Positions 21,701 to 44,050 of a stretch of DNA of 64,000 nt are shown here, piece by piece (the stretch's first letter is position 1; each line of letters begins with the position of its first letter). Under the pieces are notes generated by a model, which was not told the DNA's origin, did no database searches, and saw nothing but the letters and a program-made list of their open reading frames with translations. The position numbers and the translations under genes are program-made. Location of the stretch: positions 310,001-374,000 of the forward strand of contig JAEBUN010000024.1 of NCBI GenBank assembly GCA_023014365.1, written 5' to 3'. Source of the stretch: Lepiota brunneoincarnata (Eukaryota; Basidiomycota; Agaricomycetes; Agaricales; Agaricaceae).

Positions 21701-22101
21701 TTGACGAGTGGGTGAATATGTTTCGCTCACCCCTTTATAGAGGAAGGAACTTCCTTCCCCTGCTGGACTCCCTCGGGAAGCCAATCCAACCCTCGTACCT
21801 CTCCGGAGGTGCATGGCTCCGAGAAATTGGTCCTCGGATGTCCGTCGCTGATACAGCAAGGGCCGCCCGTACTATACTCAGTCACGCCCCTATCGGGGAG
21901 TACCGCGCTAGGTTCCACCCCCAGGAGGATCACTCCTGTCCCTGTGGGATGCGGCTTGAAACCCGCACTCACATACTCACTTTCTGTCCGAAGTACACGC
22001 GACGTGGCGGTTTACCCCGCAACCTTGACGCCCTTCTGGGCTTTCTGGAACGCAATCCTTCCATGATTGCGTTCCTATCCTGGCCCCAAGGGGTGGGATA
22101 A
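18793..22101 (+). pseudogene. NLR2 ORF2: endonuclease C-terminus, RT, RNase H-like, zinc finger
   Basis: The endonuclease C-terminus reads PSVIDLVFLPMARDP and GPSDHVPLTLVL. RT reads NSVVIPKPGKPSYSTPKAFQ, FHPNQIGGIRQKSTEDA, AFDIAQFFPSLNHDMILAVL, GVGQGSALSPVLSALYLAP and MLSYVDDGTLIVQ. A TGA at 20,968-20,970 interrupts the frame (the second copy has CGG). The rest runs to the stop at 22,101 with finger CPCGMRLETRTHILTFC. The RNase H-like part lacks two catalytic Asp positions (AAGAHRL and IYTSSAGSA where NLR1 has AATDASL and LFTDSMA). There is no start codon. The apparent upstream extension of the frame to 18,715 is NLR1 flank. Confidence 0.88.
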
Positions 22102-22530
22102 CTGGGGAGGGCCTTTGGGTTATTCCCCCCTCGCGGCTTCGGTCTCGAGGGACCGGTGGTTATTCGCCCCCTGCCCTCGGGCAGGGTGTAGCGATTTATG
22201 GAGAATTGACTCCTAACGCCCTTAGGGGCGGAGACCCGAAGTTCTTAGAGCCGGAGCCTGCAGGGTGTAGGGATTTACGGAGAATTGACTCCTAACCCCC
22301 TTCAGGGGGGGGACCTGTTGGCCCTATCCACCCCTCGTCTGCTGCACCCTGGTTTCCGTCGGGGTAGCGGACTCTTTGCCCACGCGCACTTCTTTATGGA
22401 GTGTAGCCTTTCGAGTCAGCAGGACTCTCTTCCCTACCTTCATTGGTAGTTATACCATGTATTAGTTGCCTTGTACATAGCTAGTGCATGCGGACTGCAT
22501 TCGAGCACCGCGTTATAAATTGTTGATTTC
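22102..22530 (+). other. NLR2 3' UTR with duplicated hairpin motif
   Basis: Two copies of TGTAG[C/G]GATTTA[T/C]GGAGAATTGACTCC (split here for length) are each followed by a stem-loop: CGCCC-TTAG-GGGCG at 22,217-22,230 and CCCCC-TTCA-GGGGG at 22,296-22,309. A C-G pair in one has become a G-C pair in the other, so pairing is conserved while sequence changes. The likely role, from LINE biology, is 3'-end recognition by the reverse transcriptase. This is inference. Confidence 0.65.
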
Positions 22531-25115: not shown

Positions 25116-25154
<39 letters not shown>

Positions 25155-28100
25155 TCCAATTTATTACACGGGCCGCGTAGGGAGGCCGTGCGCAGCAACG
25201 TACTACAGTACAAACGACCGAGCCGTACACTACGGGGTATCTGTACATACAACGCGTGACCGCGGATGCGGGCATGCGTTTCCCCATGCCCAGGACAAAG
25301 CCGCCCCGAATGAACGGAGGCGGGAAGACGGCTGCCGCCCAGCGCGCGGTGCAGGACCAAAGCCGAGACGAGGTCCCCCCCCTTATCGGGGGTTAGGGGT
25401 CAATTCCCGCGTAAATCCCTACACGCCGTCCGAAGACAGCGGGGGAATAACCAACGCCCCGGCCCAGACCCAACCGGGCGCCAGGCAGAGCTACTAGCCG
25501 ATACCCCCCGGGGGGGGCCCGGCCCTCTCGGCGAACGCGAATGCGGTCGGGGACGCCTCGAGGAAAGCAATGAGAGCCTCGACCGTAGCCGGGACCCCCG
25601 CCATGGAGTGCCTGGGGCAGCTCCGGAACACGTGCTCACGGGTCTCCTCCCGAAACCCGCAGCGACAGGAATAGTCTTCCTGTGGGAAAAAGCGCCTCCG
25701 ATAGCCCCCTATCGGCGCGTGGTTAAGAATAGCGCACGTCATCCGGGCCATTACTGACACCGAGTGAGCGTGCGGGATCCAGGCACCACCGTGGAGATAC
25801 GTGGGCCGCAGGGGACGGTCGTCGTCCCTGGCGAGCTGGAGGAAACCATGCCCGTGATGGTCAGGATCCTGGAACAAATCGATCCAGCGGTCCTGACACG
25901 ACCATACTTCCTCCTTACGGAGGTAGTCAAGCGAGGCCTGGGGGCGAGCCCCTACCCCAATGGGAGGCAACGACCGAGCGAAGTCGTGCACCTGAGTGTG
26001 GAAAGGCCACTTCGCACGCAAAGGGACCTCCCAGAAGTGGACCGAGCGGGCCGGACCCCCGGCGAACCACTCGGCGAGAAGGCGGCAGACTGCCAAGGAA
26101 TGACCCTGGGCGGAGTGCACCGATGGGTCCACCACCCGCCTGGCCGAGGCCATCGAGTCGGTGAACAAGACAAGACCAGCGGCGCCTTCGACAGAAACTG
26201 CCTTGGACACCGCCAGTCGAATGGCGAAAAGCTCGGCCTCGGGAGCCGTAACCTTCCCCCCCGGAAGCCGGACCGCGTGGATGCAGTCCAGCCCCTGGAA
26301 TACTTGGGCGGCCGAAACCGCCTGGTGGACCCGGCGGGGCGGCAGACTAGCGTCCGTCGCCGCCACCAGAACCCCCGGATCAGCCTGCGCCCGGGCCAAT
26401 ACCCGGTCGAGAGCCGCGACATGGGCTGCAAGGGCGCCCTCCGCCCCGCGGTCGTAAGAGTGGAAGCGGACCCGCTCGGGGTACACATCCAAGAGACGGC
26501 GCCCCGGCCAGGCCTCCGGCGCCACTGCGTCAAAGGGCCCAGCGAGGGCAGCAAGACGCTGGTTGGCGTCGACAACAGGCCCCTTCACCTTGATAAGCTC
26601 ACGGGGAGGGAGCCTGGCTATGGACCGGACGTGAGACCGGAGATCACCGCTGTAGCCCCAGCCAAGGAGGGCACGAACGGGGTGGCCCGGAGCAAGCGTG
26701 GCGTACCGCAACTCGGCACGGTCACGAAGCTTCCGGAGATGGAGATGAATGGGGATCAGGCCCGCAATGGCCCCAACCCCCCCATCGGGTGACGTCTTAA
26801 AGGCGCCGGTGATCCAGAGTGCAGCCCGGCGCTGCATCCGGCGGAGGTGGTCCAAAGCGCCCTTACACTTGGCGCCCCGGTAATACCACAAGCGAAAGCC
26901 GTACGTGGCTATAGGAACCACGCATGACCGATACAGAAGGCGCTTCTGGTCTGGCAGAAGCCCCCGGACGGAATTACCAAGCATCCCCATGGCCTTGACC
27001 ATGGAAATAGCCTTAGTAGAATAGAAGCGAACATGCTCCTTAAACGTAAGGGCACGATCGAAATAGAAACCCAAGTACCTCCAATAGGTCTTGGGCCGAA
27101 GAGGGGTAGCGCCAGTGAACGGGGGAAACCCCAAGTCCACTGGGGGATTCTCACCGGACCGATCCCGTGAGAAATGGAAGAGCTCGGACTTATCGTGCTC
27201 CACGACCAGTGCGAACCGAGTGAAGGTGTCATGGACAACCTCGTACGATCTGCGGAGCAGGGCGCAGTTAGCGTCCAAGTCCCAGGCCTGCGCCACGATG
27301 GTGCCATCGTCGACGTAAGACAGGAGCGAAAGGCCCGGCTGAGGGAGCCGTCGCTCGATAATGTACATGGCCGGGGCCAAGTAGAGGCCAGACAGGACGG
27401 GTGAGAGGGCAGACCCCTGGCCCACCCCCACCTCCGCCCGGAACGGTTCAGACAGGAAGGAGTTCCAGGCGTAGCTGGTAAACCTCCCCGTGAGATAAGA
27501 AGCGAAGAACCGGCCCACACAAGGGGAGAACCCCTGCCGAGCCAGAACCGCGAGAAGCATCCCATGGTTCAGGGATGGGAAAAACTGTGCGATGTCGAAG
27601 GCGAGAACACTTGTCTTCAACCCGCGGGCCTACCCGGCACGGACAAGGTGCACGAGATAGGCACCAGCATCTTCGGTGGACCGCTGGATCACACCGCCGA
27701 ACTGGTTCGGATGGAACACGCCAAACTTGACAGCCTCAAACTGCAAGCGGCGCGAGATCATTTTCTTGATAAGCTTACCGAGAGTGTTGAGAAGGACGAT
27801 CGGTCTGAACGCCTTCGGAGTAGCATAGGAGGGCTTGCCAGGCTTCGGTATGATAACCGACACGCTCTCCTTAAAGTGACGAGGCCAATGCCCGCACTCC
27901 ATGCAGGCATCGGCGATCCAACAGACCAAACGGGTGACCGTCGGGCCCGCCAGAACGGACTTGAGGTGCGTCCACGTGACGTGGTCCGGACCGGGTGAAG
28001 ACAGAGAGGAGCACGCGCGCAGAGCCTCGTGCATCTCCAAGTTGGAGAAGACCGGCCACTCCCGTGGCGGGAGCGGATCGATCTGATCGAGAACCCCGAC

Positions 28101-28240
28101 ATCGACCGGACGGTCGTTGGCAGCGTTGTAGGAACCGTGGAGCCCTTCCCAGAGTTCCTCGAGAGTATTGCAGGGGCGATCGCGATAGCGGATCGCCTCG
28201 CAGGGAGGCAACTTGCGCGCCCTGACCCAGTCCATCAGGT
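25116..28240 (-). mobile_element. NLR1 insertion inside another NLR1; left arm of a 3.09-kb inverted repeat
   Basis: 34 T (25,116-25,149) mark the 3' end. The element runs 3,091 bp upstream to DLMDWVRAR at 28,240 and carries a clean 16-bp target duplication. The minus-strand frames 28,240-27,630 and 27,620-25,494 are separated by a stop (VHLVRAG-TAG where other copies have TGG). The 708-codon downstream frame covers RT from AFDIAQFF onward, RNase H and finger. By eye only about two substitutions and no indel distinguish it from 30,072-33,162 of the surrounding element, which carries the same stop. Confidence 0.92.
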
Positions 28241-28256
28241 CATCAGGAACGCTGTC

Positions 28257-28937: not shown

Positions 28938-31900
28938 ATAGGGACCGTCAGGAACCTAGGAGATTGAGGAGAGCGTGTCGTGTATGGTCGCAGAATGTAT
29001 TTTGTAGTTACATTCTTGTGGACAGTCTACTAGAACAATTCAAGGATGAGGTTGATATGTTCTTACTACAGGAGCCGCCCTGGCGCTCCATCCGTCGCGT
29101 TCCGTCCTCCTCTGACCCCGACGGGGATGAGGTTGTCAGGGCGCCCAAGCATCCAGAGTGGCTGTGTTTGTTCCGCCCTCCTTCTTCCCCGGATCAGCCT
29201 CCTCGGGTTATGGCGTATGTACATAACCGGATGATGTGGCTCCGCCCCTCGCTTCGACGTGATGTCGTCGACCACCGTGACGTCATGGCCGTCTCCATGT
29301 TCCTGCATGGGGAGGCCGTGTACTTTCTCAACGTCTACTCGGACGACAGACAGTCGGGCATCCGCTATCTTGCGGACGCCGTTGACTCTCTCCCGCAGTG
29401 CGCCCTCATGTCAGGGGACTTTAACTGCCGCTCGCCGCAGTGGGACCCGTGGGCTCCCCACAACCCCGCTGCTGCCGCCTCCCTGCTGGAAACGGCGGGC
29501 TCGTTGGGCCTGGACCTCTCGCTCCCTGAAAACCCGGGCCCCACACACTTCCCCTTTGAGGAGGGGCTTGCTTCTACCGTGATCGACCTCGTGTTTGCGA
29601 GGGCGGCTGCGGGCCATCTGCCGCTTCCCACGCGGTGTCCCGATCTGCGGGGTCAATCTGACCATTGCCCCCTCCGGATCACTATCCCTCTGGAAGCCTT
29701 CGAGGAGGCTGTGCCCAGGCGCGCGCTGAAGCAGGACTCGGACGAGGAGGCCGAGTTCCTGGCTGAGGTATCGACGGGGCTTATGGGTCTGGACTTTCCA
29801 GACCTGGGCTCATCCGACAGGATCGACGAGGTGGCTCTGGCTATCTCTGCGGTCTTCTCCGAGGCGTGGCTTGCCCACTCCAAGGAGATCTGCGTCGTCT
29901 CGCGGTCTAAACCGTGGTGGGACAACAAGTGCTCGCGCACTTACGCGGTGTATTCTCGGTCCCGGGACCGGGAGGACGCTCGCACGTTTAAGCGGACCTG
30001 GAAGGCCGCCAAGCGCAAGTTCTTCGATGAGTGCATCGAGGAAATTGCTTCTACCAACAAGCGCCCCTGGGACCTGATGGACTGGGTCAGGGCGCGCAAG
30101 TTGCCTCCCTGCGAGGCGATCCGCTATCGCGATCGCCCCTGCAATACTCTCGAGGAACTCTGGGAAGGGCTCCACGGTTCCTACAACGCTGCCAACGACC
30201 GTCCGGTCGATGTCGGGGTTCTCGATCAGATCGATCCGCTCCCGCCACGGGAGTGGCCGGTCTTCTCCAACTTGGAGATGCACGAGGCTCTGCGCGCGTG
30301 CTCCTCTCTGTCTTCACCCGGTCCGGACCACGTCACGTGGACGCACCTCAAGTCCGTTCTGGCGGGCCCGACGGTCACCCGTTTGGTCTGTTGGATCGCC
30401 GATGCCTGCATGGAGTGCGGGCATTGGCCTTGTCACTTTAAGGAGAGCGTGTCGGTTATCATACCGAAGCCTGGCAAGCCCTCCTATGCTACTCCGAAGG
30501 CGTTCAGACCGATCGTCCTTCTCAACACTCTCGGTAAGCTTATCAAGAAAATGATCTCGCGCCGCTTGCAGTTTGAGGCTGTCAAGTTTGGCGTGTTCCA
30601 TCCGAACCAGTTCGGCGGTGTGATCCAGCGGTCCACCGAAGATGCTGGTGCCTATCTCGTGCACCTTGTCCGTGCCGGGTAGGCCCGCGGGTTGAAGACA
30701 AGTGTTCTCGCCTTCGACATCGCACAGTTTTTCCCATCCCTGAACCATGGGATGCTTCTCGCGGTTCTGGCTCGGCAGGGGTTCTCCCCTTGTGTGGGCC
30801 GGTTCTTCGCTTCTTATCTCACGGGGAGGTTTACCAGCTACGCCTGGAACTCCTTCCTGTCTGAACCGTTCCGGGCGGAGGTGGGGGTGGGCCAGGGGTC
30901 TGCCCTCTCACCCGTCCTGTCTGGCCTCTACTTGGCCCCGGCCATGTACATTATCGAGCGACGGCTCCCTCAGCCGGGCCTTTCGCTCCTGTCTTACGTC
31001 GACGATGGCACCATCGTGGCGCAGGCCTGGGACTTGGACGCTAACTGCGCCCTGCTCCGCAGATCGTACGAGGTTGTCCATGACACCTTCACTCGGTTCG
31101 CACTGGTCGTGGAGCACGATAAGTCCGAGCTCTTCCATTTCTCACGGGATCGGTCCGGTGAGAATCCCCCAGTGGACTTGGGGTTTCCCCCGTTCACTGG
31201 CGCTACCCCTCTTCGGCCCAAGACCTATTGGAGGTACTTGGGTTTCTATTTCGATCGTGCCCTTACGTTTAAGGAGCATGTTCGCTTCTATTCTACTAAG
31301 GCTATTTCCATGGTCAAGGCCATGGGGATGCTTGGTAATTCCGTCCGGGGGCTTCTGCCAGACCAGAAGCGCCTTCTGTATCGGTCATGCGTGGTTCCTA
31401 TAGCCACGTACGGCTTTCGCTTGTGGTATTACCGGGGCGCCAAGTGTAAGGGCGCTTTGGACCACCTCCGCCGGATGCAGCGCCGGGCTGCACTCTGGAT
31501 CACCGGCGCCTTTAAGACGTCACCCGATGGGGGGGTTGGGGCCATTGCGGGCCTGATCCCCATTCATCTCCATCTCCGGAAGCTTCGTGACCGTGCCGAG
31601 TTGCGGTACGCCACGCTTGCTCCGGGCCACCCCGTTCGTGCCCTCCTTGGCTGGGGCTACAGCGGTGATCTCCGGTCTCACGTCCGGTCCATAGCCAGGC
31701 TCCCTCCCCGTGAGCTTATCAAGGTGAAGGGGCCTGTTGTCGACGCCAACCAGCGTCTTGCTGCCCTCGCTGGGCCCTTTGACGCAGTGGCGCCGGAGGC
31801 CTGGCCGGGGCGCCGTCTCTTGGATGTGTACCCCGAGCGGGTCCGCTTCCACTCTTACGACCGCGGGGCGGAGGGCGCCCTTGCAGCCCATGTCGCGGCT

Positions 31901-32818
31901 CTCGACCGGGTATTGGCCCGGGCGCAGGCTGATCCGGGGGTTCTGGTGGCGGCGACGGACGCTAGTCTGCCGCCCCGCCGGGTCCACCAGGCGGTTTCGG
32001 CCGCCCAAGTATTCCAGGGGCTGGACTGCATCCACGCGGTCCGGCTTCCGGGGGGGAAGGTTACGGCTCCCGAGGCCGAGCTTTTCGCCATTCGACTGGC
32101 GGTGTCCAAGGCAGTTTCTGTCGAAGGCGCTGCTGGTCTTGTCTTGTTCACCGACTCGATGGCCTCGGCCAGGCGGGTGGTGGACCCATCGGTGCACTCC
32201 GCCCAGGGTCATTCCTTGGCAGTCTGCCGCCTTCTCGCCGAGTGGTTCGCCGGGGGTCCGGCCCGCTCGGTCCACTTCTGGGAGGTCCCTTTGCGTGCGA
32301 AGTGGCCTTTCCACACTCAGGTGCACGACTTCGCTCGGTCGTTGCCTCCCATTGGGGTAGGGGCTCGCCCCCAGGCCTCGCTTGACTACCTCCGTAAGGA
32401 GGAAGTATGGTCGTGTCAGGACCGCTGGATCGATTTGTTCCAGGATCCTGACCATCACGGGCATGGTTTCCTCCAGCTCGCCAGGGACGACGACCGTCCC
32501 CTGCGGCCCACGTATCTCCACGGTGGTGCCTGGATCCCGCACGCTCACTCGGTGTCAGTAATGGCCCGGATGACGTGCGCTATTCTTAACCACGCGCCGA
32601 TAGGGGGCTATCGGAGGCGCTTTTTCCCACAGGAAGACTATTCCTGTCGCTGCGGGTTTCGGGAGGAGACCCGTGAGCACGTGTTCCGGAGCTGCCCCAG
32701 GCACTCCATGGCGGGGGTCCCGGCTACGGTCGAGGCTCTCATTGCTTTCCTCGAGGCGTCCCCGACCGCATTCGCGTTCGCCGAGAGGGCCGGGCCCCCC
32801 CCGGGGGGTATCGGCTAG
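28934..32818 (+). pseudogene. NLR1 ORF2 with a single in-frame stop
   Basis: ATG 28,934 (MNRDRQEPRRLRRACRVWSQ). Endonuclease: LLQEPPW, SGDFNCRSPQWDPW, STVIDLVFARAAAG, SDHCPLRI. RT: IIPKPGKPSYATPKAFRPIV, FHPNQFGGVIQRSTEDA, then a TAG at about 30,680 (HLVRAG-stop, Trp in relatives), then AFDIAQFFPSLNHGMLLAVL, GVGQGSALSPVLSGLYLAP and LLSYVDDGTIVAQ. RNase H: AATDASLPPRRV, PEAELFAIRLAVSK, LFTDSMASARRVVD. Finger: CRCGFREETREHVFRSC. The stop at 32,816-32,818 follows PPPGGIG. All catalytic residues survive; the one stop separates endonuclease and fingers from the RT palm. Confidence 0.92.
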
Positions 32819-33181
32819 TAGCTCTGCCTGGCGCCCGGTTGGGTCTGGGCCGGGGCGTTGGTTATTCCCCCGCTGTCTTCGGACGGCGTGTAGGGATTTA
32901 CGCGGGAATTGACCCCTAACCCCCGATAAGGGGGGGGACCTCGTCTCGGCTTTGGTCCTGCACCGCGCGCTGGGCGGCAGCCGTCTTCCCGCCTCCGTTC
33001 ATTCGGGGCGGCTTTGTCCTGGGCATGGGGAAACGCATGCCCGCATCCGCGGTCACGCGTTGTATGTACAGATACCCCGTAGTGTACGGCTCGGTCGTTT
33101 GTACTGTAGTACGTTGCTGCGCACGGCCTCCCTACGCGGCCCGTGTAATAAATTGGAGATTTAAAAAAAAAAAAAAAAAAA
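30072..33181 (+). repeat. Right arm of the 3.09-kb inverted repeat
   Basis: Reverse complement of 25,116-28,240. Excluding the A/T tails (19 and 34 nt) both arms are 3,091 bp. The spacer is 28,241-30,071. A transcript crossing both arms would fold into a very long duplex. Confidence 0.9.
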
Positions 33182-35652
33182 GATAGGGCCAACAGGTCCC
33201 CCCCCCGAAGGGGGCTAGGAGTCAATTCTCCGTAAATCCCTACACCCCGCAGGCCTAGGCTCTAAGGACTTTGGGTCTCCGCCCCTAGGGGCGTTAGGAG
33301 TCAATTCTCCATAAATCGCTACACCCTGCCTGAGGGCGGGGGGCGAATAACCATCAGTCCCTCGAAGCCAAAGCTGCGAGGGGGGAACAACCCGAAGGCC
33401 CTCCCCAGTTATCCCACCCCTTGGGGCCGGGATAGAAACGCAAACGCGGAAGGGTTGCATTCCAGAAAGCCCAGAAGGGCATTGAGGTCACGGGGTAAGC
33501 TGCTATGCCGCGTATACTTCAGACAGGAAGTGAGTATGTGAGTGCAGGTTTCAAGCCGCAACCCACAGGGACAGGAGTGGTCCTCCTGGGGGTGGAATCT
33601 AGCGCGGTACTCCCCGATAGGGACGTGACCGAGTATGGTGCAGGCGGCCCTCGCTGTACCAGCGACGGACATCCGGGAACCGATTTCTTGGAGCCACACA
33701 CCTCTGGAGAGGTATGAGGGTTGGATTGGCTTCCCGAGGGAGTCCAGCAGGGGGAGGAAATTCCTTCCCCTATAAAGGGGCAAGTGAAACATATTCACCC
33801 ACTCGTCAATACACCCTCTCGTGACCTCAGCCCAGAGAGAGTCGATAGTAGTCGCTGGGCGGATGCCTAGCGACACATGGAGCTCCTTCACCATTGCGAC
33901 AGCGTCAGAGTGAAGCTCTGCAACAGAGCCCGCAGGCACCTGCCAGAAGGTAACAGTCTGCTGGGCCTTGGAAGACAACCAGTGGTCCAGGGACCAACAC
34001 ACCTCCAGGGAATGAACCTGGCCGGCGTGCACAGAGGGATCTACAGCTCTGCAGGCGGAGCCCGCAGAGCTGGTGTAGATGAAGATGTGGTCGGTTTCCA
34101 CATGGTCTAGGACCATGCTTACTCCCAACCGAATGGAGTGGAGCTCCGCATCAGCAAGCAGAACCCTCCCCGCGGCCTGTCTGGCCTGCTTGACCAGACG
34201 CCCGCCTGCAAACACACAAGCTGCCGAGATAGCCTGCAGTCTCCTGTATGGCAGCTGGTGTGCACCAGCCACTATGCAAGCAGACGACGGGTCGGACTGC
34301 GCCCTCCAGATGGAGGCGTGCAATCCATCAAGATGCCGTTGCTTCGAATCCCCCTCCGGATCAACGGTGTATAGTCTAAATTTGATCCACTCCGAGAAAC
34401 GGTCCAAAAGACGGAGACCTGGCCTATTCTCATCCGCAAACGGGGAGAAAGGCTCAGTAAGCTGTGGGAGTACTGCCTGTACCTCCATAAGAGCACTCCT
34501 CACCTTAGGCCGAAGCGCAGGGATGAGAGTCGAGATAGCCCGGGGGTGCTCCGGAGAGCTGCCCCTGAATTCACAGCCCAGCAGGGGCCGGAGCGGATGA
34601 TTATCCGCAAGAGTGGCGACCCGGAATATCATTTGGGAGGCCAGCTTCTTAAGGTGCAGCCGGAAAGGCAGAAGGCCTGCAAGGGCCTCTGCCCCCCCAG
34701 TTGGGGACGTGCGAAACGCACCGATGATCCAATTAGTGGCTTGCTGCTGTATGGAGTTGAACATCTTGAGGATTCCCTTATTGCGGAAGCCCTCGTGATA
34801 CCACATACAAAATCCATACGTGGCAATGGGAACCACGCAGGACCGGTACAGGAGGCGCTTCTGGTTGGGAAGCAACCCCCGGGTTGAATTACCAAGCATC
34901 CCCATCGCACCAACCATGGAGAATGCCTTGGTAGAATAGTAGCAGACGTGCTCACGAAAAGTGAGAGCACAGTCGAAATAGAAACCCAAGTACCGCCAAA
35001 ACGGCTTGGGCCTCAAAGGAGTGTCCCCCGTGTACGGATGGAAGCCCAAGTCAATGGGCGGGTTGGCATCCCTCGGGTTGCGAGAGAAGTGAAAGACCTC
35101 AGACTTGGTATGCTAAAGCATGAGGCCAAAGGAGTCAAAGAGCCCATGCATGCAGCGGTACGCCGCCTGCAGGGCAGAAACGTTGTCCTCCCAAGTCTTG
35201 GCCTGGACTATAAGGGTCCCATTGTCAACATACGAGAGCATGTCAACATTGAGGCCGGGGGTCTGCTGGTAGTACAAGTACACCAGGGGGGCAAGATACA
35301 AGGCAGACAAGACTGGGGACAGAGCAGAGCCCTGCCCCATGCCCACATCCGCCTGCCTAGGGTCTGACCGGAAAGAATTCCACAAGTAGGTGGTAGACCT
35401 CCCAACCAGATAAGAGCCGAAGAATCGCACCAACTCTGGCGCAAAACCCGACCGTGACAGCACCGCCAGAATCATGTCATGATTCAGCGAAGGGAAGAAC
35501 TGAGCGATGTCGAAGGCCACAACGCTAGTCCGCAGTCCCTGAGCCCACCCCACACGAACGAGATGAGTGAGGATCAACCCGGCATCCTCAGTGGACTTCT
35601 GGCAGATACCGCCAACCTGGTTGGGATGAAACACCCCCCATTTGACACAGTC
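33182..35652 (-). pseudogene. NLR2 copy 2: RT core to 3' UTR
   Basis: The minus-strand sequence starts in RT (WGVFHPNQVGGICQKSTEDA at about 35,650) and reads AFDIAQFFPSLNHDMILAVL, GQGSALSPVLSALYLAP and MLSYVDNGTLIVQ (YVDD changed to YVDN). It has TAG at 35,115-35,113 (LML-stop where the other copy has Glu). The frame is then open from about 35,110 to 33,409 with finger CPCGLRLETCTHILTSC. The RNase H-like part again shows VAGAHQL and IYTSSAGSA. The 3' UTR holds both hairpin motifs but lacks its last ~230 bp and poly(A), because NLR1 ends at 33,181. Confidence 0.88.
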
Positions 35653-36209
35653 CCATTGTTCGCACTCAGGATGCCCCCTCTGGCTCCTCTCGACCCAGCT
35701 ACAGTTCTGCATCGCAGGCTATGGTCCCTGCCCTAGCTGCCAAGGCCCCCAAAAGGCCTTGCGAGTCTGCTGTCTACCTGGATGATGCTCTGGTGACCCC
35801 TCGTCCCAAGCATACCTGCATGTCCGAGCCATCCACCTCCTTCAGACAGGACCTCGACCTCAAATTGGTCTCCGGTTCAGCCAGGATGGCGGTCGACACC
35901 CCTGGCCCCAAGCCATCCCCTGGCCCTGCTTTCGTTGCGGAGGAGGAGGATCCCAACTTCATCCCCACCTTTCTCACCCTCTCTTGCAGTACTGTAAATG
36001 TAGAGGGTGAGGCTGGGATCGTGGTGGATGTGCTCGACACAGTCACCCTATGGCTGGAGAGAGCCAGGAGGGCCCCTTTTTCTGACGGCGGCAGGTTGGA
36101 GGTCACCCGCTCCCTGGCCAGGCTCTTCCACAAGGTGGAGGAGTATGACTGGGATGATGTCCCCTTCAAGGAGGGCGAGCACACCCACAGGCTCCATAAG
36201 TGGGCCTCT
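35653..36209 (+). pseudogene. NLR1 ORF1 N-terminal region (old copy, part 1)
   Basis: This is the most N-terminal NLR1 ORF1 seen here. It reads MVPALAAKAPKRPCESAVYL, then EEEDPNFIPTFLTLS, GEAGIVVDVLDTVTLWLERA, LEVTRSLARLFHKVEEYDWD and HTHRLHKWAS, where the chromovirus inserts. The same segment, on the minus strand at 52,800-53,060, aligns well. It is Pro/Ser-rich, then helical. The copy has lost many CpGs, which marks it as old. The left edge is fused to truncated NLR2. Confidence 0.78.
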
Positions 36210-36859
36210 TGTCATATCCATGCCAACTATAAGTCTAATCACTTAAACTTCGGCTTCTCGACTCCACGCGTGTTCCACACAACAACCCTCTGCCCTCCGA
36301 CTCGGCCCCGACTCACTCCGACCGCAACCCACTGCCCTGATCACGTGACCACCTCCACACGTGCCGTGGTCACCTGAACCTCGCTGTCTCTATTTCCCCG
36401 TCTCCATTTCCCGTCCGTAGTCAAGATACGTTACCAGTCTCCATACCCGTACCGGTCTCCATTTCGTTTGTAATCCGTTTGTAACCATATGGGTCTCCGC
36501 TTCACTCCGCACGTAGTCAGTACGAGTCATAGTTCGTAAGGCCAGTAGTATATATACCGTAGGTACTTGGCTTGTACTCCTCAGTCTGATAATCGAATCG
36601 AGCAGCGGACCAGCTCCCTGTTCCATATCCTCTCCTCTCTTCTGCCTCGCTCCGCTTCGGCTCCGACTTCCTGAAATACGGACTAGGACAGTAGGAGGGC
36701 ACAGCACATAAGCTGAGGCCGCAAGTCCAACCCCCGCCCGACGTACTCCGCCTCGGTCCCGAAGTCTACGTACTGACTTCGCCCTGTCCCCCGGTTACCT
36801 TATACCAAGGATACCACCCCGACCCTCCGCTTCGGTCCCGACCCGCACCGGCTCTAACA
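36210..36859 (+). repeat. Chromovirus 5' LTR (650 bp)
   Basis: Begins TGTCATATCCATGCC and ends CGGCTCTAACA (TG...CA). It contains TATATATA at about 36,549-36,556, a plausible core promoter, with start of transcription expected some 30 bp further. The CT- and CCG-rich 3' half leads to gag at 36,913. Confidence 0.93.
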
Positions 36860-36912
36860 GTATTATCAGACTCAAACTCCTCCTGTCCACCACACTCTGA
36901 ATTTTTCTAACC

Positions 36913-38319
36913 ATGGTCTCTCGAACAGTTACCCGTACTCGCACTCTGGTAACTCCAGCCGCTCGCCGTAGCAAACGCATCACTCGACAACCTCCTTCCG
37001 AGGAACTGCAACCCGACTCCCCGAGGGCTTCTCGCTCTCACCAACAATCGATCGCACCCTCGACCCCAGACCGTTTCTCTGAAGATATACAACCTTCAGT
37101 ATTCCGGACTCCCGACGGCCCCGACGACGGCCCCGACCCCAATCCTGATCCCAGCGACCCTGGTGATCCCGACGACTACCCTGACAATGGGGACGGGCCC
37201 CCGGGCGACGACGAACCATCAGACAACGGCGACAACAACAACAACATCCCACCTGGCAACACCCGAGACGACCATGATAGACTCATACTCCGAGTTTTCC
37301 AACGCATAGCTGACCAAATGGACGGCCGTGGGAACTCTCAAGCCCCACAGCCTCCTCGAACTCCCCGTACCAAAGCTCGCGAACCTGACATCTTTACAGG
37401 TTCCAACCCCGCCAAACTCAAACCCTTCCTCTTCCAATGTCGGCTCTACTTCCGTACTAACCCGGCCCAGTTCGCTATCCCCACCACCAAGGTCAACTTC
37501 GCGTTGACGTACCTCACAGGTGTGGCACAGCAACACTTCGAAATCGGCCTCGATGAGGCCGACAACCACGGAATAATGCACCACTGGATCGAGGACTGGG
37601 ACCAGTTCACCCTGGAACTGCAGACCAATTTCGGTCCCGCGGATCCGACCGGAGAAGCTGCTGAGCAGCTCGACTCCCTTCGAATGCGCTACGACGAGAA
37701 GATCGCCGTCTACAACGTCGATTTCCTCCGTCTAGCTGGCCAACTCCGCTGGGGTGACGAAGTATTCTGTCACCGCTACTACAAAGGCCTCCCCGACCGC
37801 ATCCAGGACATTCTGTCCAATCGGCCCGACGGCAAGCCCGACACCTTCATCGAAATGCGAGCAGCAGCGATGAAGATCGATGCTCGCTACTGGGAACGCC
37901 AACGCGAGAAGGCCCGCGCCAAAGCCGCTTCGGACCCGACCGCCTCTAGGAAACCTGGAGGCAACCCATCCCCTTCCACCGCGACAAACCATCAACCTGC
38001 CGCCAAGCCTGCCAACAGTAACAACAAAGGCAGCACCCCCAGTAATAACATCTTCAAGGGCAATCCGCCCAACCCGTCCGCCGGTCAGAAATCGGCCCCG
38101 CCAAAGTCCGACCTTACTAGTAAACTTGGTAAGGACGGTAAATTAACCCCCGAGGAATGTCAACGACGTTTCGACAATAACCTCTGCCTTGTCTGCGCAG
38201 ATCCCAATCACAGGGCTGCTAACTGCGACAAGAAAAAATTCCCTGATGCCAAGGCTAAAGGCCGACAGGCTCAGCTCCCCGAGACAGACGCGCCGGCTCT
38301 CCCGAGCTCGGAAAAATAG
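36913..38319 (+). CDS. gag: Chromovirus Gag
   Basis: 468 codons from ATG 36,913 in context CTAACCATGG. The N-terminal third is acidic and Pro/Asp/Asn-rich (DGPDDGPDPNPDPSDPGD). The retrotransposon Gag domain lies at about residues 155-340 (REPDIFTGSNPAKLKPFLFQ, VNFALTYLTGVAQQHFE, LQTNFGPADPTGEAAEQLDS). The C-terminus has a single CCHC knuckle CLVCADPNHRAANC (CX2CX4HX4C). It forms the particle and binds RNA. The stop TAG (38,317-38,319) is preceded by five A. Pol is in the -1 frame and open from 38,259, so Pol is probably made by -1 slippage at or near GAA-AAA-TAG. Confidence 0.93.
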   Translation: MVSRTVTRTRTLVTPAARRSKRITRQPPSEELQPDSPRASRSHQQSIAPSTPDRFSEDIQPSVFRTPDGPDDGPDPNPDPSDPGDPDDYPDNGDGPPGDDEPSDNGDNNNNIPPGNTRDDHDRLILRVFQRIADQMDGRGNSQAPQPPRTPRTKAREPDIFTGSNPAKLKPFLFQCRLYFRTNPAQFAIPTTKVNFALTYLTGVAQQHFEIGLDEADNHGIMHHWIEDWDQFTLELQTNFGPADPTGEAAEQLDSLRMRYDEKIAVYNVDFLRLAGQLRWGDEVFCHRYYKGLPDRIQDILSNRPDGKPDTFIEMRAAAMKIDARYWERQREKARAKAASDPTASRKPGGNPSPSTATNHQPAAKPANSNNKGSTPSNNIFKGNPPNPSAGQKSAPPKSDLTSKLGKDGKLTPEECQRRFDNNLCLVCADPNHRAANCDKKKFPDAKAKGRQAQLPETDAPALPSSEK

Positions 38320-41300
38320 TCGGCGGTCCTCAGGCCTCTGCACAGACTGAGGATCGCATTGAACTCTGCTGTGCTCCAGAGAGTTTCCGTCTCAATGCGT
38401 CCGCTCTTTCCGACCCGAACTCCTTTCATATCACATTAACTTCTCCTTTAATTACTTCTGTATCTTCTGTCTCCGCTTCCGTACTCTCCGCTTCGGACCC
38501 GATTTCTACAACGGACAATGTAGTTAGTTCTGATTTCTCTTCTCTTTCTCCTTTCAAAGCCCTTGTTGATAGTGGTTCTACTCACTGTTTTGTGGACTCA
38601 TCTTTTGTTCGTTCTCATAGTATTCCAACCTCGTCCATTCCGGCTATTGAACTTCGGTTATTTGATGGGACCTCAAATGCCTACATTACGGAGCTTGCGC
38701 AACTGCCTGTATCTTTCCCCTCCGGTGAATCTATCATTTTGGACACTTATGTCACCCGGCTCGACTCTTCCTGTTCTGTGGTCTTAGGACACAACTGGCT
38801 CACCCGCTACAATCCGTTGATTGACTGGGCTTTGGGCAGTATTACTTTCCGGCCATCCCTACTCGAGAATCCTGCTTCCGTCTCTACCTGCGTCGCACCC
38901 GCATCGGCTCCGCCTATGGCCGCCCCTGACTCCCCTGACCTAGGTTCACCACCCCTGTCCGGGACCTCGTCCCAATCTGTCCCCCTTGCGAAACCGCACA
39001 TCTCCTTGATAAACGCTCCTGCCTTTATCCGCGCTGCCAAGCTCCCTGGCTCCCAACAATTCCGAATCAATCTTTCCGCCGCCTCCGCATCGGCCGCGTC
39101 CTCTTCTGTCTCCGAGGAACCGCCTGACCTCTCGTCTATCCCCGAGGAATACCACGAGTTCGCTGACGTTTTCAGTAAATCGCGTGCTGACACACTTGCT
39201 CCACACCGCCCTTACGACCTCCAGATTAACCTAGAGGATGGCGGTCAGCCTCCGGTCGGTACCATTTACTCCCTTTCACAATCGGAGCTTGGAGCTCTAC
39301 GTGATTTTATTGACGAACATTTATCTATTGGTTTCATCCGCCCCTCCACTTCCCCTCATGGAGCCCCGGTCCTCTTCGTCAAGAAAAAGGACGGCTCCCT
39401 CCGCTTATGCGTTGATTTTAGAGGTCTCAACCGTATCACCAAGAAGGACCGCTATCCCCTTCCGCTCATCTCCGACCTCTTAGACTCCCCTCGCAAAGCT
39501 CGCGTATATACCAAGATCGACCTCCGCCACGCCTACCATCTTGTCCGCGTTGCTGACGGCGACGAATGGAAGACCGCCTTTCGGACCCGCTACGGCTCCT
39601 TCGAATGGATGGTTATGCCTTTCGGCCTCACCAATGCCCCCGCCACCTTCCAGCGGTTCATGAACGATATATTCAAGGACATGCTCGACGTCTGCGTTAC
39701 TATCTACCTTGACGACATTCTGATATACTCCGACAACCATAGTATCCATCGTGACCAAGTCAAGGAGGTCCTCAAGCGGCTCCGCCAACACGGTCTATAC
39801 GCCCGCCCTGACAAATGCCAGTTCCACTCTGACACAGTGGAATATCTCGGCTACATTCTCTCCCCCGACGGCCTCCGAATGGACCAATCTAAGGTCAAGA
39901 CCATCCAGGAGTGGCCTGAGCCTAAGAAAGTCAAGGACATCCAGTCCTTCCTTAGGCTTCGCCAATTTCTACCGTCGCTTCATTCACGGATACTCCGACA
40001 TCGTCGTTCCGCTCACTCGCCTCACCCGCAAAGACGTGAAGTGGAATTTTACTGATGATTGTCGCGAGGCCTTTAACTCCCTGAAGGAAGCATTTATCTC
40101 CGCCCCCGTCCTCACTCCTTGGGTCCCCGACGCTCAGATCATTGTCGAGACCGACGCCTCCGACTACGCCCTTGCGGCAATCCTCTCTATCGTCACCGAC
40201 GATGGGGAGGTCCATCCCGTTGCATTCCATTCCCGCACCTTTAACACGGCCGAACTCAACTATGACACTCACGACAAGGAACTCCTGGCGATATTCGAAG
40301 CCTTTCGCATCTGGCGGCACTATCTCGAAGGTGCCCCCCTTGCTATTGATGTGGTCACTGACCACAAGAACCTCGAATACTTCTGCACCACCAAGATCCT
40401 GACTCGCCGCCAAGCTCGTTGGTCCGAGTTCCTATCCCAATTCCACCTCGTCATCCGTTTCCGACCCGGCCGCCTCGGCACCAAGCCTGACGCCCTAACT
40501 AGACGATGGGACGTCTACCCTAAAGGGGGGAATAGCGACTATGCATCAGTCAACCCGCACAACTTCCGGCCTGTGTTCACTCACGAACAGCTCGCGGCCT
40601 CCGTCCGTGCCACCACTCTTTACGCCCCTTCCCTTCGCGCAGCTGTAGTCATGGACCTCGATCAGCTACACCGCGATATTCTCGCCGCCCTACCAGCGGA
40701 TCCGACCGCTTCCGCCCATCTTGCCAGCCCAGAAGGCCGTTGGTCAGTTAATGATAAAGGTTTCCTCCTCTTAGACGACAGAATCTACGTCCCTGACACC
40801 GACAATCTCCGACTTCGGGTCCTCCAGTACAAGCATGATCACGTCCTAGCCGGCCACTTCGGTCAGAATAAAACGCTGGAACTCATCCGGCGCGAATACA
40901 CCTGGCCTAGCGTCCGCACCTTCGTCAAGGATTTCTGTAAGTCTTGCGTCACCTGTATGAGGTCTAAACCCCAGCGCCATCGCCCCTACGGTCTCCTTAA
41001 GCAACTCCCCATCCCCGAACGCCCTTGGAATTCAATCTCCATGGACTTCATCGAAAAACTTCCCGCCTCCTCCGGCTATGACGCCATCCTGGTAATCGTT
41101 GACAGACTCACCAAGCAATCCCTCTTCATCCCGACTTATGATACCGTCACCTCCTCCGACCTCGCCCGCCTATTCGTCCTCCACGTCTTCTCCAAGCACG
41201 GCGTACCCGAACATGTTACCTCCGACCGCGGCTCCGAATTCGTCTCCCACTTCTTCCGCTCATTGGGACAAGCCCTTGACATGAAGCTACATTTCACCTC

Positions 41301-42120
41301 GGGCTACCATCCAGAAGGCGACGGACAAACGGAACGCACCAACCAGACCCTCGAACAATACCTTCGGGTCTACTGTAACTACCAACAGGACAATTGGTCC
41401 AAATTACTACCACTAGCCGAGTTCGCTTACAACAACGCTCCTAGTGCCACCACCGGTATCTCCCCGTTCTTCGCTAATAAAGGATACCATCCGAACATCA
41501 CAGTTCATCCTGAACGCGATCTCGCCTCCGCTCGGGCCCGCCATTTTGCTGTTGACCTCGACGACCTACACACCACCTTGAAGTCTGAAATAGCGCTAGC
41601 CCAGCAACGTTATCAGACCTCCGCCGACGCCCGCCGACTCCCCGCCCCGGACTTCAAGGTTGGGCAAAAGGTATTCGTGAAAGCCCAATTCTTCCGCACC
41701 ACCCGTCCCTCCAAAAAACTCTCCGAAAAGTACCTTGGGCCTTATGAGATCATTGCACAAGCAGGTACTCACTCCCTTACACTCCGACTTCCCGACTCCA
41801 TGCGTGGAGTACACCCAGTCTTCCATGTTTCCATGCTCGAACCAGCCACACCTAACACCATACCCGCCCGATCGGATCCGCCGCCCGCGCCAGTTTCCAT
41901 TGACGGTGAACCAGAATACGAGATTGCCCGCATCGTCGACTCTAAGATCGATCGGCGCCGCGCGTGCAAGCTCCTCTATAAAGTCATCTGGTTAGGTTAC
42001 GAAGACACTGAAGAAGAGTCCTCGTGGTTGCCAGCCACCGAGCTTGAACATGCTATAGATCTCGTAGAGGCTTTTCATTCCTCTTACCCTGCAAAGCCTG
42101 GTCCTCTTCACTCACTTTGA
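38259..42120 (+). pseudogene. pol: Chromovirus Pol: protease, RT, RNase H, integrase, chromodomain; one frameshift
   Basis: Protease ALVDSGSTHCFVDS at about 38,559. RT: FVKKKDGSLRLCVDFRGLNR, MPFGLTNAPATFQRFMNDIF and YLDDILIYSD (39,705 on). After DIQSFL an extra base (the A at about 39,954) shifts the frame: the first frame ends at 40,055, and the GFANFYRRFIHGYS continuation is in the next frame. RNase H: ETDASDYALAAILS. Integrase: HHCC finger (HVLAGHFGQNKTLELIRREY, CKSCVTC) and DDE (SMDFIEKLP, TSDRGSEF, EGDGQTERTNQTLE). C-terminal chromodomain (YEIARIVDSKIDRR, LYKVIWLGYED, ESSWLPATEL). The chromodomain family is known to steer insertion to marked chromatin. Without the extra base the frame would be intact; sequencing error is possible. 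Confidence 0.92.
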
Positions 42121-42190
42121 GTTACTGACCACACATCGCACCAAGAAACAACCATGTATTAAACAAACCAAAAAAAACAACCCCGTACAA

Positions 42191-43267
42191 CTACCTATCG
42201 GTGTCGTCTCCAGAGAGCCCGGGCGACCCATTCACTTCTTCCATCAAATCCTGCACCTCCTCCTCCGAAGCGGGCCCGACACCCCCCTCCGAACCCTCCG
42301 TCTCCGAAAAATTTCCACTCGACCAATTTCCGTCCACCTGAGCCTCCCAACGCCGTAGTTGCTCGTAGCGGCCAGCAAGCGACCCCATCTTGTCGACCTT
42401 TTCCCCCAACCGAGCGATGGACCGCTCAATTCGCACCTCCAGGATGTAGATTTTCTTGACGGTCTCCTGGTGCCTTTCTTCGATGAGCCGTTTCAACTCT
42501 ACAAGGTCCATCAATTGGCATCCATCATAATACAGGATTCCTTACTCACCTTCGAATTGCTGGCCCGACAAACCTCCGGCTCCGCTCGGCTCCGTCTCTT
42601 CTTGACCCCCGCATCGTTTCTTCATTTTGCTACACCGTCGGCAACTCCTAGTGTTGCTGGGGCCTTTGTCAGCAATTATCATCGTAGAAACTCTTGTATT
42701 TACTTACCCGCCGGCAATCTCGCACCGGACCTCATCCCGCTGACATCTCCAGCACGGGTTATCGCCTCCGAATACATGTTTGTTGCCCCGCCGCGGGGCC
42801 GCCCTCGCCTTTCCTTTTCCCTTTCCCTTTACCTCCGAACCTTCGGAGTCCTCCTCCTCTTCGTCCCTCGCCGCGTCATCGCCCGTGTAATTCGGGTCGG
42901 ACTCTTCATGGTCGACTTCCATAGGCTGCTCCGGCAGGCGGCTAGATGAAGCCGTCGTAGTCATCGCGACGAGTCGGGCCCGGATCGCCCGACGTTCGTC
43001 CTCAGCAGCTTCCTCTTGCTGTCGCCTGATCTCTTCCGCCCGTCGCTCCCTTGCCCGCTCCTCCGCTTGCCGTTGACGCAGTTCAATCATCCGTCGCCGT
43101 TCTTCCTCTTGGCGCTCTACCGCCAATCGTCGTTCCTCCTCTCGCCGTTCCTCCTCTTCCAACCTCTCGATCTCCAGCCGCATCCGCTCCTCCTGCTCCG
43201 CCTTTTCCCTCAGTAACTGCGCCTTGCGCTCCGCCGCGGTTGGTTGTCGAGACAATTGGCTGCTCAT
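42191..43267 (-). CDS. Antisense spliced gene inside the chromovirus; coiled coil plus Zn(II)2Cys6-like cluster
   Basis: Predicted exons 43,267-42,708, 42,656-42,550 and 42,498-42,191; total 975 nt, 324 residues. Both introns are 51 bp: GTAAGT...TTGCTGAC...CCCAG and GTGAGT...TTGAT...TTGTAG. Residues about 10-95 are an Arg/Glu-rich coiled coil starting MSSQLSRQPTAAERKAQLLR. Then an acidic stretch and KGKGKGKAR. Splicing joins CWRCQRDEVRC to CRRCSKMKKRC, giving C-x2-C-x6-C-x9-C-x2-C-x6-C (Cys 172 to 202), the spacing of fungal zinc-cluster DNA-binding domains. Exon 3 holds a second coiled coil and an acidic tail. Unspliced RNA would stop straight after the third Cys. Function unknown; a regulator of the element or of host genes is inference. 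Confidence 0.75.
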
Positions 43268-43316
43268 GGTGGTAGGAGGTCAAGTTGTGTATTTCCGGAC
43301 CGAACCAGTTCGCCGG

Positions 43317-43324
43317 TTTTTATA
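43317..43324 (-). promoter_or_regulatory. TATA box for the antisense gene
   Basis: Minus-strand TATAAAAA, about 50 bp upstream of the ATG at 43,267, between the gene and the 3' LTR. A start site some 30 bp downstream would give a 5' UTR of about 20-25 nt. It is outside the LTR, so this promoter would be independent of the sense promoter. Confidence 0.6.
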
Positions 43325-43399
43325 CTCGGGCGGATGTCTTCCGATGGACCCGGTCTGGACCGCCTAGGGCCTCGAGGCTCGGCCCTAAAGGGGGGGCAC

Positions 43400-44050
43400 T
43401 GTCATATCCATGCCAACTATAAGTCTAATCACTTAAACTTCGGCTTCTCGACTCCACGCATGTTCCACACAACAACCCTCTGCCCTCCGACTCGGCCCCG
43501 ACTCACTCCGACCGCAACCCACTGCCCTGATCACGCGACCACCTCCACACATGCCGTGGTCACCTGAACCTCGCTGTCTCTATTTCCCCGTCTCCATTTC
43601 CCGTCCGTAGTCAAGATACGTTACCAGTCTCCATACCCGTACCGGTCTCCATTTCGTTTGTAATCCGTTTGTAACCATATGGGTCTCCGCTTCACTCCGC
43701 ACGTAGTCAGTACGAGTCATAGTTCGTAAGGCCAGTAGTATATATACCGTAGGTACTTGGCTTGTACTCCTCAGTCTGATAATCGAATCGAGCAGCGGAC
43801 CAGCTCCCTGTTCCATATCCTCTCCTCTCTTCTGCCTCGCTCCGCTTCGGCTCCGACTTCCTGAAATACGGACTAGGACAGTAGGAGGGCACAGCACATA
43901 AGCTGAGGCCGCAAGTCCAACCCCCCGCCCGACGTACTCCGCCTCGGTCCCGAAGTCTACGTACTGACTTCGCCCTGTCCCCCGGTTACCTTATACCAAG
44001 GATACCACCCCGACCCTCCGCTTCGGTCCCGACCCGCACCGGCTCTAACA
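43400..44050 (+). repeat. Chromovirus 3' LTR (651 bp)
   Basis: Same ends as the 5' LTR. Visible differences are CGCG to CGCA (about 43,459), CACGTGACC to CACGCGACC, CACGTGCC to CACATGCC, and an extra C near 43,926. All substitutions are transitions at CpG. Confidence 0.93.

Follow-up and report, generated by a model that had tools for sequence, protein, structure and literature searches.

An antisense gene within a chromovirus

The stretch analyzed here (hereafter the window) comprises 64,000 nt of the Lepiota brunneoincarnata genome (assembly GCA_023014365.1, contig JAEBUN010000024.1, positions 310,001-374,000; all positions below are window positions) and contains a Ty3/Gypsy chromodomain long terminal repeat (LTR) retrotransposon, i.e., a chromovirus, on the plus strand. 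Between pol and the 3' LTR of this element lies the subject of this report, a gene on the minus strand with an ATG at 43267, a stop at 42191, two 51-nt introns, and a spliced product of 324 amino acids (aa). The features of chromovirus membership are all present, namely the LTRs, a target-site duplication (CCTCT on both flanks), gag, reverse transcriptase, RNase H, integrase, and the chromodomain, and Pfam matches within the element represent gag, protease, reverse transcriptase, RNase H, integrase, SH3_Tf2-1, and Chromo (Table 1). Three substitutions and one indel separate the two LTRs (650 and 651 nt). With only these three substitutions the window copy is young, yet its pol is broken near 39940-39960, where the reverse transcriptase part is split over two frames. 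In the host genome, an open pol frame of at least 1278 aa holds 63 of the 113 integrase matches that were scored (see below).

An earlier note on this DNA, made from the sequence by itself, had proposed the antisense gene, and its description could largely be re-derived: the two 51-nt GT-AG introns are there on the minus strand, and the spliced frame of 324 residues stays in phase. The pattern C-x2-C-x6-C-x9-C-x2-C-x6-C arises solely by splicing, as had been claimed, with one Cys triad in exon 1 (residues 172-182) and the other in exon 2 (residues 192-202), and retention of intron 1 ends translation at a TAA five residues past the third Cys. Two details need correction. A TATAAAAA box does stand above the ATG, at 43324, and the distance between them is 57 nt, not 50. 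Canonical branch points had been ascribed to both introns; intron 1 has CTGAC, and intron 2 of the window copy has just TTGAT, with no strict CTRAY.

Table 1. Features of the chromovirus and of its antisense gene (window positions)
Feature	Position	Strand	Remarks
Chromodomain Ty3/Gypsy LTR retrotransposon	36210..44050	+	LTR pair, target-site duplication, Pfam matches
5' LTR	36210..36859	+	
3' LTR	43400..44050	+	
gag	36913..38319	+	PF03732
pol, two frames	38259..42120	+	open frame broken near 39940-39960 in window copy
Chromodomain, pol C end	41917..42081	+	PF00385, E 1.9e-7
Polypurine tract AAAGGGGGGG	43387..43396	+	precedes 3' LTR, outside antisense gene
TATAAAAA (TATA) box of antisense gene	43317..43324	-	starts at 43324
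Antisense exon 1	42708..43267	-	560 nt; ATG, charged helix, acidic stretch, K/G-rich stretch, first Cys triad
First Cys triad, C-x2-C-x6-C	42722..42754	-	residues 172, 175, 182
Intron 1	42657..42707	-	51 nt, GT...AG
Exon 2	42550..42656	-	107 nt; second, basic Cys triad
Second Cys triad, C-x2-C-x6-C	42611..42643	-	CRRCSKMKKRC; residues 192, 195, 202
Intron 2	42499..42549	-	51 nt, GT...AG
Exon 3	42191..42498	-	308 nt; C-terminal charged helix, acidic tail, stop codon
Composite sites 1-4, 5' LTR	36296..36312, 36651..36667, 36747..36763, 36826..36842	+	CGG-N2-CCG
Composite sites 1-4, 3' LTR	43486..43502, 43841..43857, 43938..43954, 44017..44033	+	CGG-N2-CCG
20 further CGG-N2-CCG sites	37116..42982	.	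in gag, pol, antisense gene; first starts 37116, last 42975

Conservation and position of the gene among genomic copies

The host genome was searched with the DNA of the gene (best 40 scored of 202 candidates) and with 170 residues of its protein (330 matches, 150 of them listed). Eighty loci were read, comprising the 40 DNA matches, 30 loci from the protein search, and ten hand-picked divergent matches, and these yielded 64 distinct copies. The ATG is present in 58 of these copies and the TATA box stands at the aligned position in 57, while the GT-AG ends of intron 1 and intron 2 are intact in 62 and 63, respectively. A complete spliced frame is found in 31 of the 64, encoding proteins of 313-334 aa. 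Within this intact set intron 1 measures 47, 48, or 51 nt and intron 2 measures 50, 51, or 52 nt, and the coding sequence remains divisible by three despite intron lengths that are not tied to three. A CTRAY branch site occurs in intron 1 of all 31 and in intron 2 of five. Both introns and all six Cys are retained, with the same Cys spacing, in every intact copy (31/31). Decayed copies were not used as evidence on this point, since Cys codons are not hit by CpG transitions; L074, L075, and L078, which are among the most heavily decayed, have lost Cys. In L074, intron 2 is gone along with parts of both flanking exons, i.e., by deletion rather than by clean intron loss.

Comparison between subfamilies separated the introns from the coding sequence. 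Identity of intron 1 to the window copy is 47-53% in copies of another exon-1 type and 86-88% in the L021 type, and that of intron 2 is 53-60% in six copies (L018, L021, L034, L029, L076, and L039) and 76% in L072, while for exon 2 the values are 89-95% in 14 other-subfamily copies and 79-87% in the three copies L076, L072, and L039. On these alignments, the introns are near-saturated between subfamilies while the reading frame and exon 2 stay conserved. Differences at codon positions 1/2/3 are 20/23/86 in exon 1 between L001 and L024, which represent two subfamilies, and in exon 2 range from 0/0/9 to 0/0/10 against L024, L064, and L033, with 2/2/4 against L021. Purifying dN/dS (nonsynonymous to synonymous substitution rates) in homologues, which the earlier note had put forward as a check, was obtained by the NG86 method for 16 pairs of intact copies. 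In the deepest pairs it is 0.10-0.16 for exon 1 (window type versus L024, L026, L064, L068, L033, and L051, at dS 0.89-1.32) and 0.26-0.31 for exon 3 (between two exon-3 types, at dS 0.80-0.94), with exon 3 values of 0.29-0.31 against L018, L021, and L034. Across all 16 pairs dN/dS is 0.10-0.30 for exon 1 and 0.12-0.39 for the whole frame, the higher values belonging to closer pairs or to pairs that differ in exon 3 alone. Judged by these patterns, the antisense gene is real, spliced, and selected, far beyond chance.

The introns likely persist because they lie antisense to the genomic RNA, an explanation already offered for their survival through retrotransposition, and the genome looks as this explanation would have it. 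The spliced exon 1-exon 2 junction is absent from the host genome (four two-mismatch matches versus three for the reversed control, none of them gene-like), and the exon 2-exon 3 junction gave zero matches there.

A search of the host genome for integrase (best 113 scored of 1358 candidates) showed how regularly the gene accompanies its element. A listed antisense-gene match lies immediately downstream, on the opposite strand, of 96 of the 113 scored integrase matches, and none lies there on the same strand; with L035, L039, L092, and L094 added, the gene stands beside at least 100 of the 113. The expectation that homologues would occupy the same place in related chromovirus copies is thereby borne out. 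The remaining scored integrase matches are six deletion derivatives (L088-L091, L087, and L093) and seven others. Conversely, of the 150 gene matches listed, 50 stand without an adjoining scored integrase match, in a search that scored 113 of the 1358 integrase candidates. A conserved opposite-strand gene between pol and the 3' LTR in most copies characterizes the aORF-3R class, and this is the arrangement found here. A second chromovirus in this genome, with a frame of 1222 aa (L081 and L085), gave no antisense-gene match after pol, and ten stretches of other retroelements (L081-L086 and L097-L100) gave a single tblastn match with E 0.51, the part after pol being covered in L081-L086 alone. 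The second chromovirus carries a long sense frame after pol with Cys/His knuckle-like motifs (L081:969-2246 and L085:1128-2351), for which the L081 frame had no Pfam match.

The same in-frame deletion occurs in four insertions with different flanks (L088-L091); it removes the cluster and the helices and spares 71 codons of the antisense gene (with a stop in L089). These insertions differ from each other by 5-8 of 951 nt, and their pol frame is 1286 aa long in three and 1181 aa in the fourth. Since the deletion copies multiplied, the antisense gene is not needed in cis; as read from these copies, it either acts in trans, or is dispensable, or is even repressive. The many full copies have a low dN/dS, which speaks against plain dispensability. 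The LTR sites described below persist in the deletion copies, which fits a regulator acting in trans.

Beyond the gene itself, the copies are mosaic (e.g., L018, L021, L024, L033, and L064): a block of exon 1, promoter, and LTR from one subfamily is joined to a block of pol and exon 3 from another, the changeover falling in or near exon 2. Co-evolution of exon 1 with the LTR was considered and rejected, as the exon 1 of L033 is divergent (71-83%) yet its LTR is 94-100% identical. CpG transitions make up 66 of 126 differences from an intact copy in L039, 40 of 74 in L035, and 47 of 103 in L037, and are less frequent in others (25/63 and 21/60). This decay of old copies suggests CpG methylation in the host or a process resembling repeat-induced point mutation (RIP).

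The six-cysteine protein and the CGG-N2-CCG array

From its N-terminal end, the encoded protein consists of a charged helix (residues 11-100), an acidic stretch, a K/G/R-rich stretch, the Cys cluster, a charged stretch (residues 223-285), and an acidic tail. The charged stretch behind the cluster appears helical by eye, and its periodicity is weak. Fungal Zn2Cys6 clusters follow the spacing rule C-x2-C-x6-C-x5-12-C-x2-C-x6-8-C, and this rule is matched in all 31 intact copies. The basic recognition residues of Gal4 lie in its N-terminal triad. Lys199 of the antisense protein, in the second triad, presumably takes the place that Lys18 has in the first triad of Gal4. A role of Gal4 Lys18 is described in PMC5559640. 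For the domain as a whole we infer a zinc-cluster-like function, possibly with the two halves of the cluster in swapped order. The PF00172-type Cys spacing pointed out in the earlier note stands; as limits, the Pfam gathering cut-off is missed and the basic triad is the second rather than the first.

Among Pfam families, where TRP28 should appear as PF04195, solely PF00172 was listed for the antisense protein, below the cut-off. Matches to solved structures were at chance level (Pho7, E 8.4-9.2; formamidopyrimidine-DNA glycosylases, 0.45-1.9; kallikrein, 0.94), and a viral contig collection contained no related elements. Relatives of the pol protein were found in a large protein collection, where the few named ones among the 120 listed are from Trametes (73-75%) and the best match reaches 86%; taken by themselves, these pol relatives point to a probable mushroom-type basidiomycete as host.

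The same element contains an array of candidate target sites. Counting one LTR and the interior, there are 24 CGG-N2-CCG sites, while each of the other spacings from 0 to 12 gives 2-6; in the 56 kb outside the element the N2 spacing is not in excess (12, versus 8-41 for other spacings), and the palindrome TCGGNNCCGA occurs six times inside and not once outside. The interior holds 20 sites versus 3.0 in dinucleotide shuffles (z 10), the highest rank among 832 inverted-triplet combinations, with z 5.6 for the runner-up. Within gag and pol, 15 sites compare with 2.5 under permutation of synonymous codons (maximum 7 in 1000), and they occupy all three codon frames. In the LTRs, the sites form part of a 17-nt CGG-rich motif with four copies per LTR; 13 of its 14 window matches (≤3 mismatches) are inside the element, with 0.82 expected in all, and 23 of the 24 full LTRs that were read retain all four at this threshold, while the remaining one retains three. 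Genome-wide, the motif occurs 820 times with ≤1 mismatch versus once for a reversed control, counting all genome positions in or outside copies. As a unit this motif was dropped, its conservation being no better than that of slid controls, and the tighter CGG-N2-CCG was tested instead.

Half-sites change more slowly than their surroundings. Within the antisense gene of 17 other-subfamily copies, 25 of 510 half-site positions differ (4.9%), as do 23 of 170 spacer positions (13.5%) and 15.7% of the rest of the gene; in 11 diverged LTRs the corresponding values are 6/264 (2.3%), 10/88 (11.4%), and 8.2%, with 8.0% for CpG positions elsewhere. The rate at half-sites is hence 2.8-5 times below that of spacers, in counts that come from related copies. 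Diverged copies of the element are dense in the sites (L095, 10 versus 1.1; L096, 4 versus 1.1), and the diverged interior L095 retains 10 of 13 sites where 0.47 would be expected from isolated triplets. The ten stretches of other retroelements have 0 or 1 CGG-N2-CCG each, three in total versus about 3.8 in shuffles. An RNA-hairpin reading of the sites was set aside by reasoning alone, as the palindrome would leave a two-base loop. Dimers of fungal Zn2Cys6 proteins typically bind paired CGG triplets in inverted, direct, or everted arrangement, according to PMC5559640, and because such pairs are their usual target, the array may be linked to the antisense protein.

The surroundings of the element also contain repeats. 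A reverse transcriptase frame on the minus strand (35116-35718, PF00078) lies just upstream and resembles an older retroelement. A perfect inverted duplication (25131-28241 and 30071-33181) has arms of 3111 nt that are 100% complementary and 1829 nt between them, and complementarity is 89% between its outer arms (20000-22328 and 33182-35510); either a recent palindrome or an effect of the assembly could account for this. Elsewhere in the genome, three integrase matches at an exact spacing of 4726 bp (G000 C6:42552-52306) resemble a head-to-tail array of one element.

A putative self-regulator and its alternatives

We hypothesize, at a probability of roughly 0.5, that the antisense protein is a trans-acting regulator of its own element, probably activating or anti-silencing. 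The presence of the CGG-N2-CCG array in the same element lends this self-regulator reading independent support. Building on what can be read directly from the DNA (the gene, its introns, selection on the protein, the six Cys, the array, and the slower half-sites), we infer that the transcript would be spliced in the cell and that its product, a likely zinc-binding nuclear dimer, would be a candidate DNA binder via the cluster joined from exons 1 and 2, with the helix behind the cluster serving for dimerization and the acidic stretches lying outside. Mechanistically, this protein would act in trans on element DNA through the CGG-N2-CCG palindromes in the LTRs and the interior, and the net effect would be to keep the family transcribed, either by transcriptional activation or by shielding from silencing by cytosine methylation. 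Activation or anti-silencing is preferred over repression on weak grounds; the CpG-transition decay of some old copies fits a host that methylates. A fuller version, in which a protein with swapped triads reads CGG-N2-CCG sites sown by selection throughout the element, coding sequence included, as a self-encoded and sequence-specific anti-silencing or transactivation system, is tentative and has the odds against it.

Several observations weigh against a sequence-specific self-regulator. PF00172 stays below its gathering cut-off of 21 bits, with exact 64-aa pieces scoring 13.4, 20.7, and 20.6 bits and two full proteins 14.7 and 14.3 bits, while the full window protein gives no Pfam match to PF00172 and a 55-aa piece of it 14 bits. 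The basic residues sit in the second triad, unlike in Gal4, and the first triad aligns to the second half of the PF00172 profile (positions 15-32). The earlier note had suggested searching for homologues of the 324-residue product, and none was found in a protein collection that includes fungi (residues 100-324 at E ≤0.001; exon 1 at E ≤1); this collection contains the fungal pol relatives, so the blank is not from absent fungi, with the caveat that spliced fungal genes may be poorly called in metagenomes. A lineage without the zinc cluster still multiplied to four insertions. As for the sites, the top combination in the LTRs is CCG-N3-CGG (6, z 11.5), with CGG-N2-CCG third (4, z 7.0), and the 17-nt LTR composite is not conserved significantly above slid controls (0.20). 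The CGG pattern had been spotted by eye in the LTR before testing, the half-site counts are not independent, and the diverged L096 retains just 4 of 11 sites (0.43 expected). The other retroelements are poorer in G+C and few sites are expected in them, so that they show no excess rather than depletion. Finally, a host factor could bind the CGG-N2-CCG sites.

This last point leads to an alternative that we regard as unlikely and still worth serious attention, in which the protein is a nuclear nucleic-acid-binding accessory without sequence preference (e.g., for import of the pre-integration complex, RNA export, or packaging) and the LTR is driven by a host Zn2Cys6 factor, whose targets are the sites. 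The basic K/G-rich stretch, the basic second triad, and the fact that PF00172 membership is not established would all suit such a protein, as would plant analogues such as Grande GENE23, which is nuclear and of unknown role according to passages of PMC7264820. However, the sites also extend across gag, pol, and the antisense gene, above the synonymous-codon null in gag and pol, where a host factor driving the LTR needs none, and the ten other-retroelement stretches of the genome lack a site excess. The same CGG-N2-CCG sites would equally serve a self-limiting repressor that binds the element and shuts the LTR, whether for copy-number control or superinfection immunity, and the spread of cluster-less derivatives at least four times with LTR sites kept resembles escape from one. 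We nonetheless consider repression rather improbable, as just 4 of the 113 scored integrase matches belong to the deletion lineage, whereas 31 of 64 copies preserve the full frame, which is under purifying selection.

A further alternative is a captured host gene whose targets, in gene expression or defense, lie in the host rather than in the element; action on host genes was one option of the earlier note, and regulators of the zinc-cluster kind are typical of fungi. The 50 listed gene matches not beside a scored integrase match leave some room for this, but the protein collection yielded no homologue and the site array sits within the element, and a captured gene of this kind appears very unlikely. 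Least probable is that the antisense RNA is what functions, through double-stranded RNA control, with an incidental frame. Antisense transcripts of LTR elements may feed small interfering RNA pathways (PMC7264820, in part), yet purifying dN/dS, a frame held through intron and exon indels, and Cys that are invariant in intact copies strongly disfavor it.

The self-regulator reading can be set beside several known systems. Antisense additional genes of LTR elements are well described, with possible roles undetermined according to a 2020 review (PMC7264820), and an open reading frame (ORF) of Retand has a domain predicted to bind DNA (PMC11963269, in part). The present gene is like these ORFs in place, orientation, presence in most copies, and a suspected nuclear or DNA-binding role, and unlike them in host and element, which here are a fungus and a chromovirus; the main text of these papers mentions no introns, and the passages compared contain no six-Cys cluster or self-site array. 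The brtn gene of Boty/BcGypsy1 in Botrytis cinerea (Zhao et al. 2011) is likewise an antisense gene of a fungal Gypsy element between pol and the 3' LTR, a likeness drawn by description alone from parts of PMC7264820 and PMC8365987. The nearest functional pattern to the antisense gene and its array is VANC21 of VANDAL21 in Arabidopsis. This protein is encoded by the element, and its short motif is densely present within the family and scarce in other elements (PMC5735166, in part). Here too the motif is dense in the element and in L095 and L096, without excess in the ten other-retroelement stretches. VANDAL21 differs in being a DNA transposon with a mainly non-coding motif, and binding and methylation loss have been shown for VANC21 (passages of PMC5735166), while the present case is built on sequence. 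With fungal Zn2Cys6 factors (Gal4, Leu3, and Pho7; PF00172) the protein shares the six-Cys spacing, a putative helix behind the cluster, acidic regions, and CGG pairs as candidate target, and differs from them in its sub-cut-off Pfam score, basic second triad, intron-split cluster, and location antisense in a retrotransposon. HBZ of HTLV-1, a spliced regulator of transcription, differs in being a bZIP-type protein of an animal retrovirus. It is likewise an antisense accessory gene with a nuclear product (PMC11963269, in part).

A limited, mostly open-access literature search, covering titles and the openings of abstracts, found no report of LTR elements with an antisense zinc-cluster gene or with a CGG array across the whole element. 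While antisense genes as such are known from LTR elements, what is new here is a spliced six-Cys gene together with a CGG-N2-CCG array as its candidate target. The undetermined role of antisense genes in LTR elements now has a candidate DNA-binding domain, strong selection, and a candidate target in the same element, and the question of function becomes one of a simple binding assay and a reporter test. If the self-regulator reading is true, the splice-dependent cluster would make the protein readable from the antisense transcript alone, and the introns would mark a gene that retrotransposition can never strip, which would explain their retention through reverse transcription. Overall, an LTR retrotransposon would then be doing for itself what VANC does for a DNA transposon.

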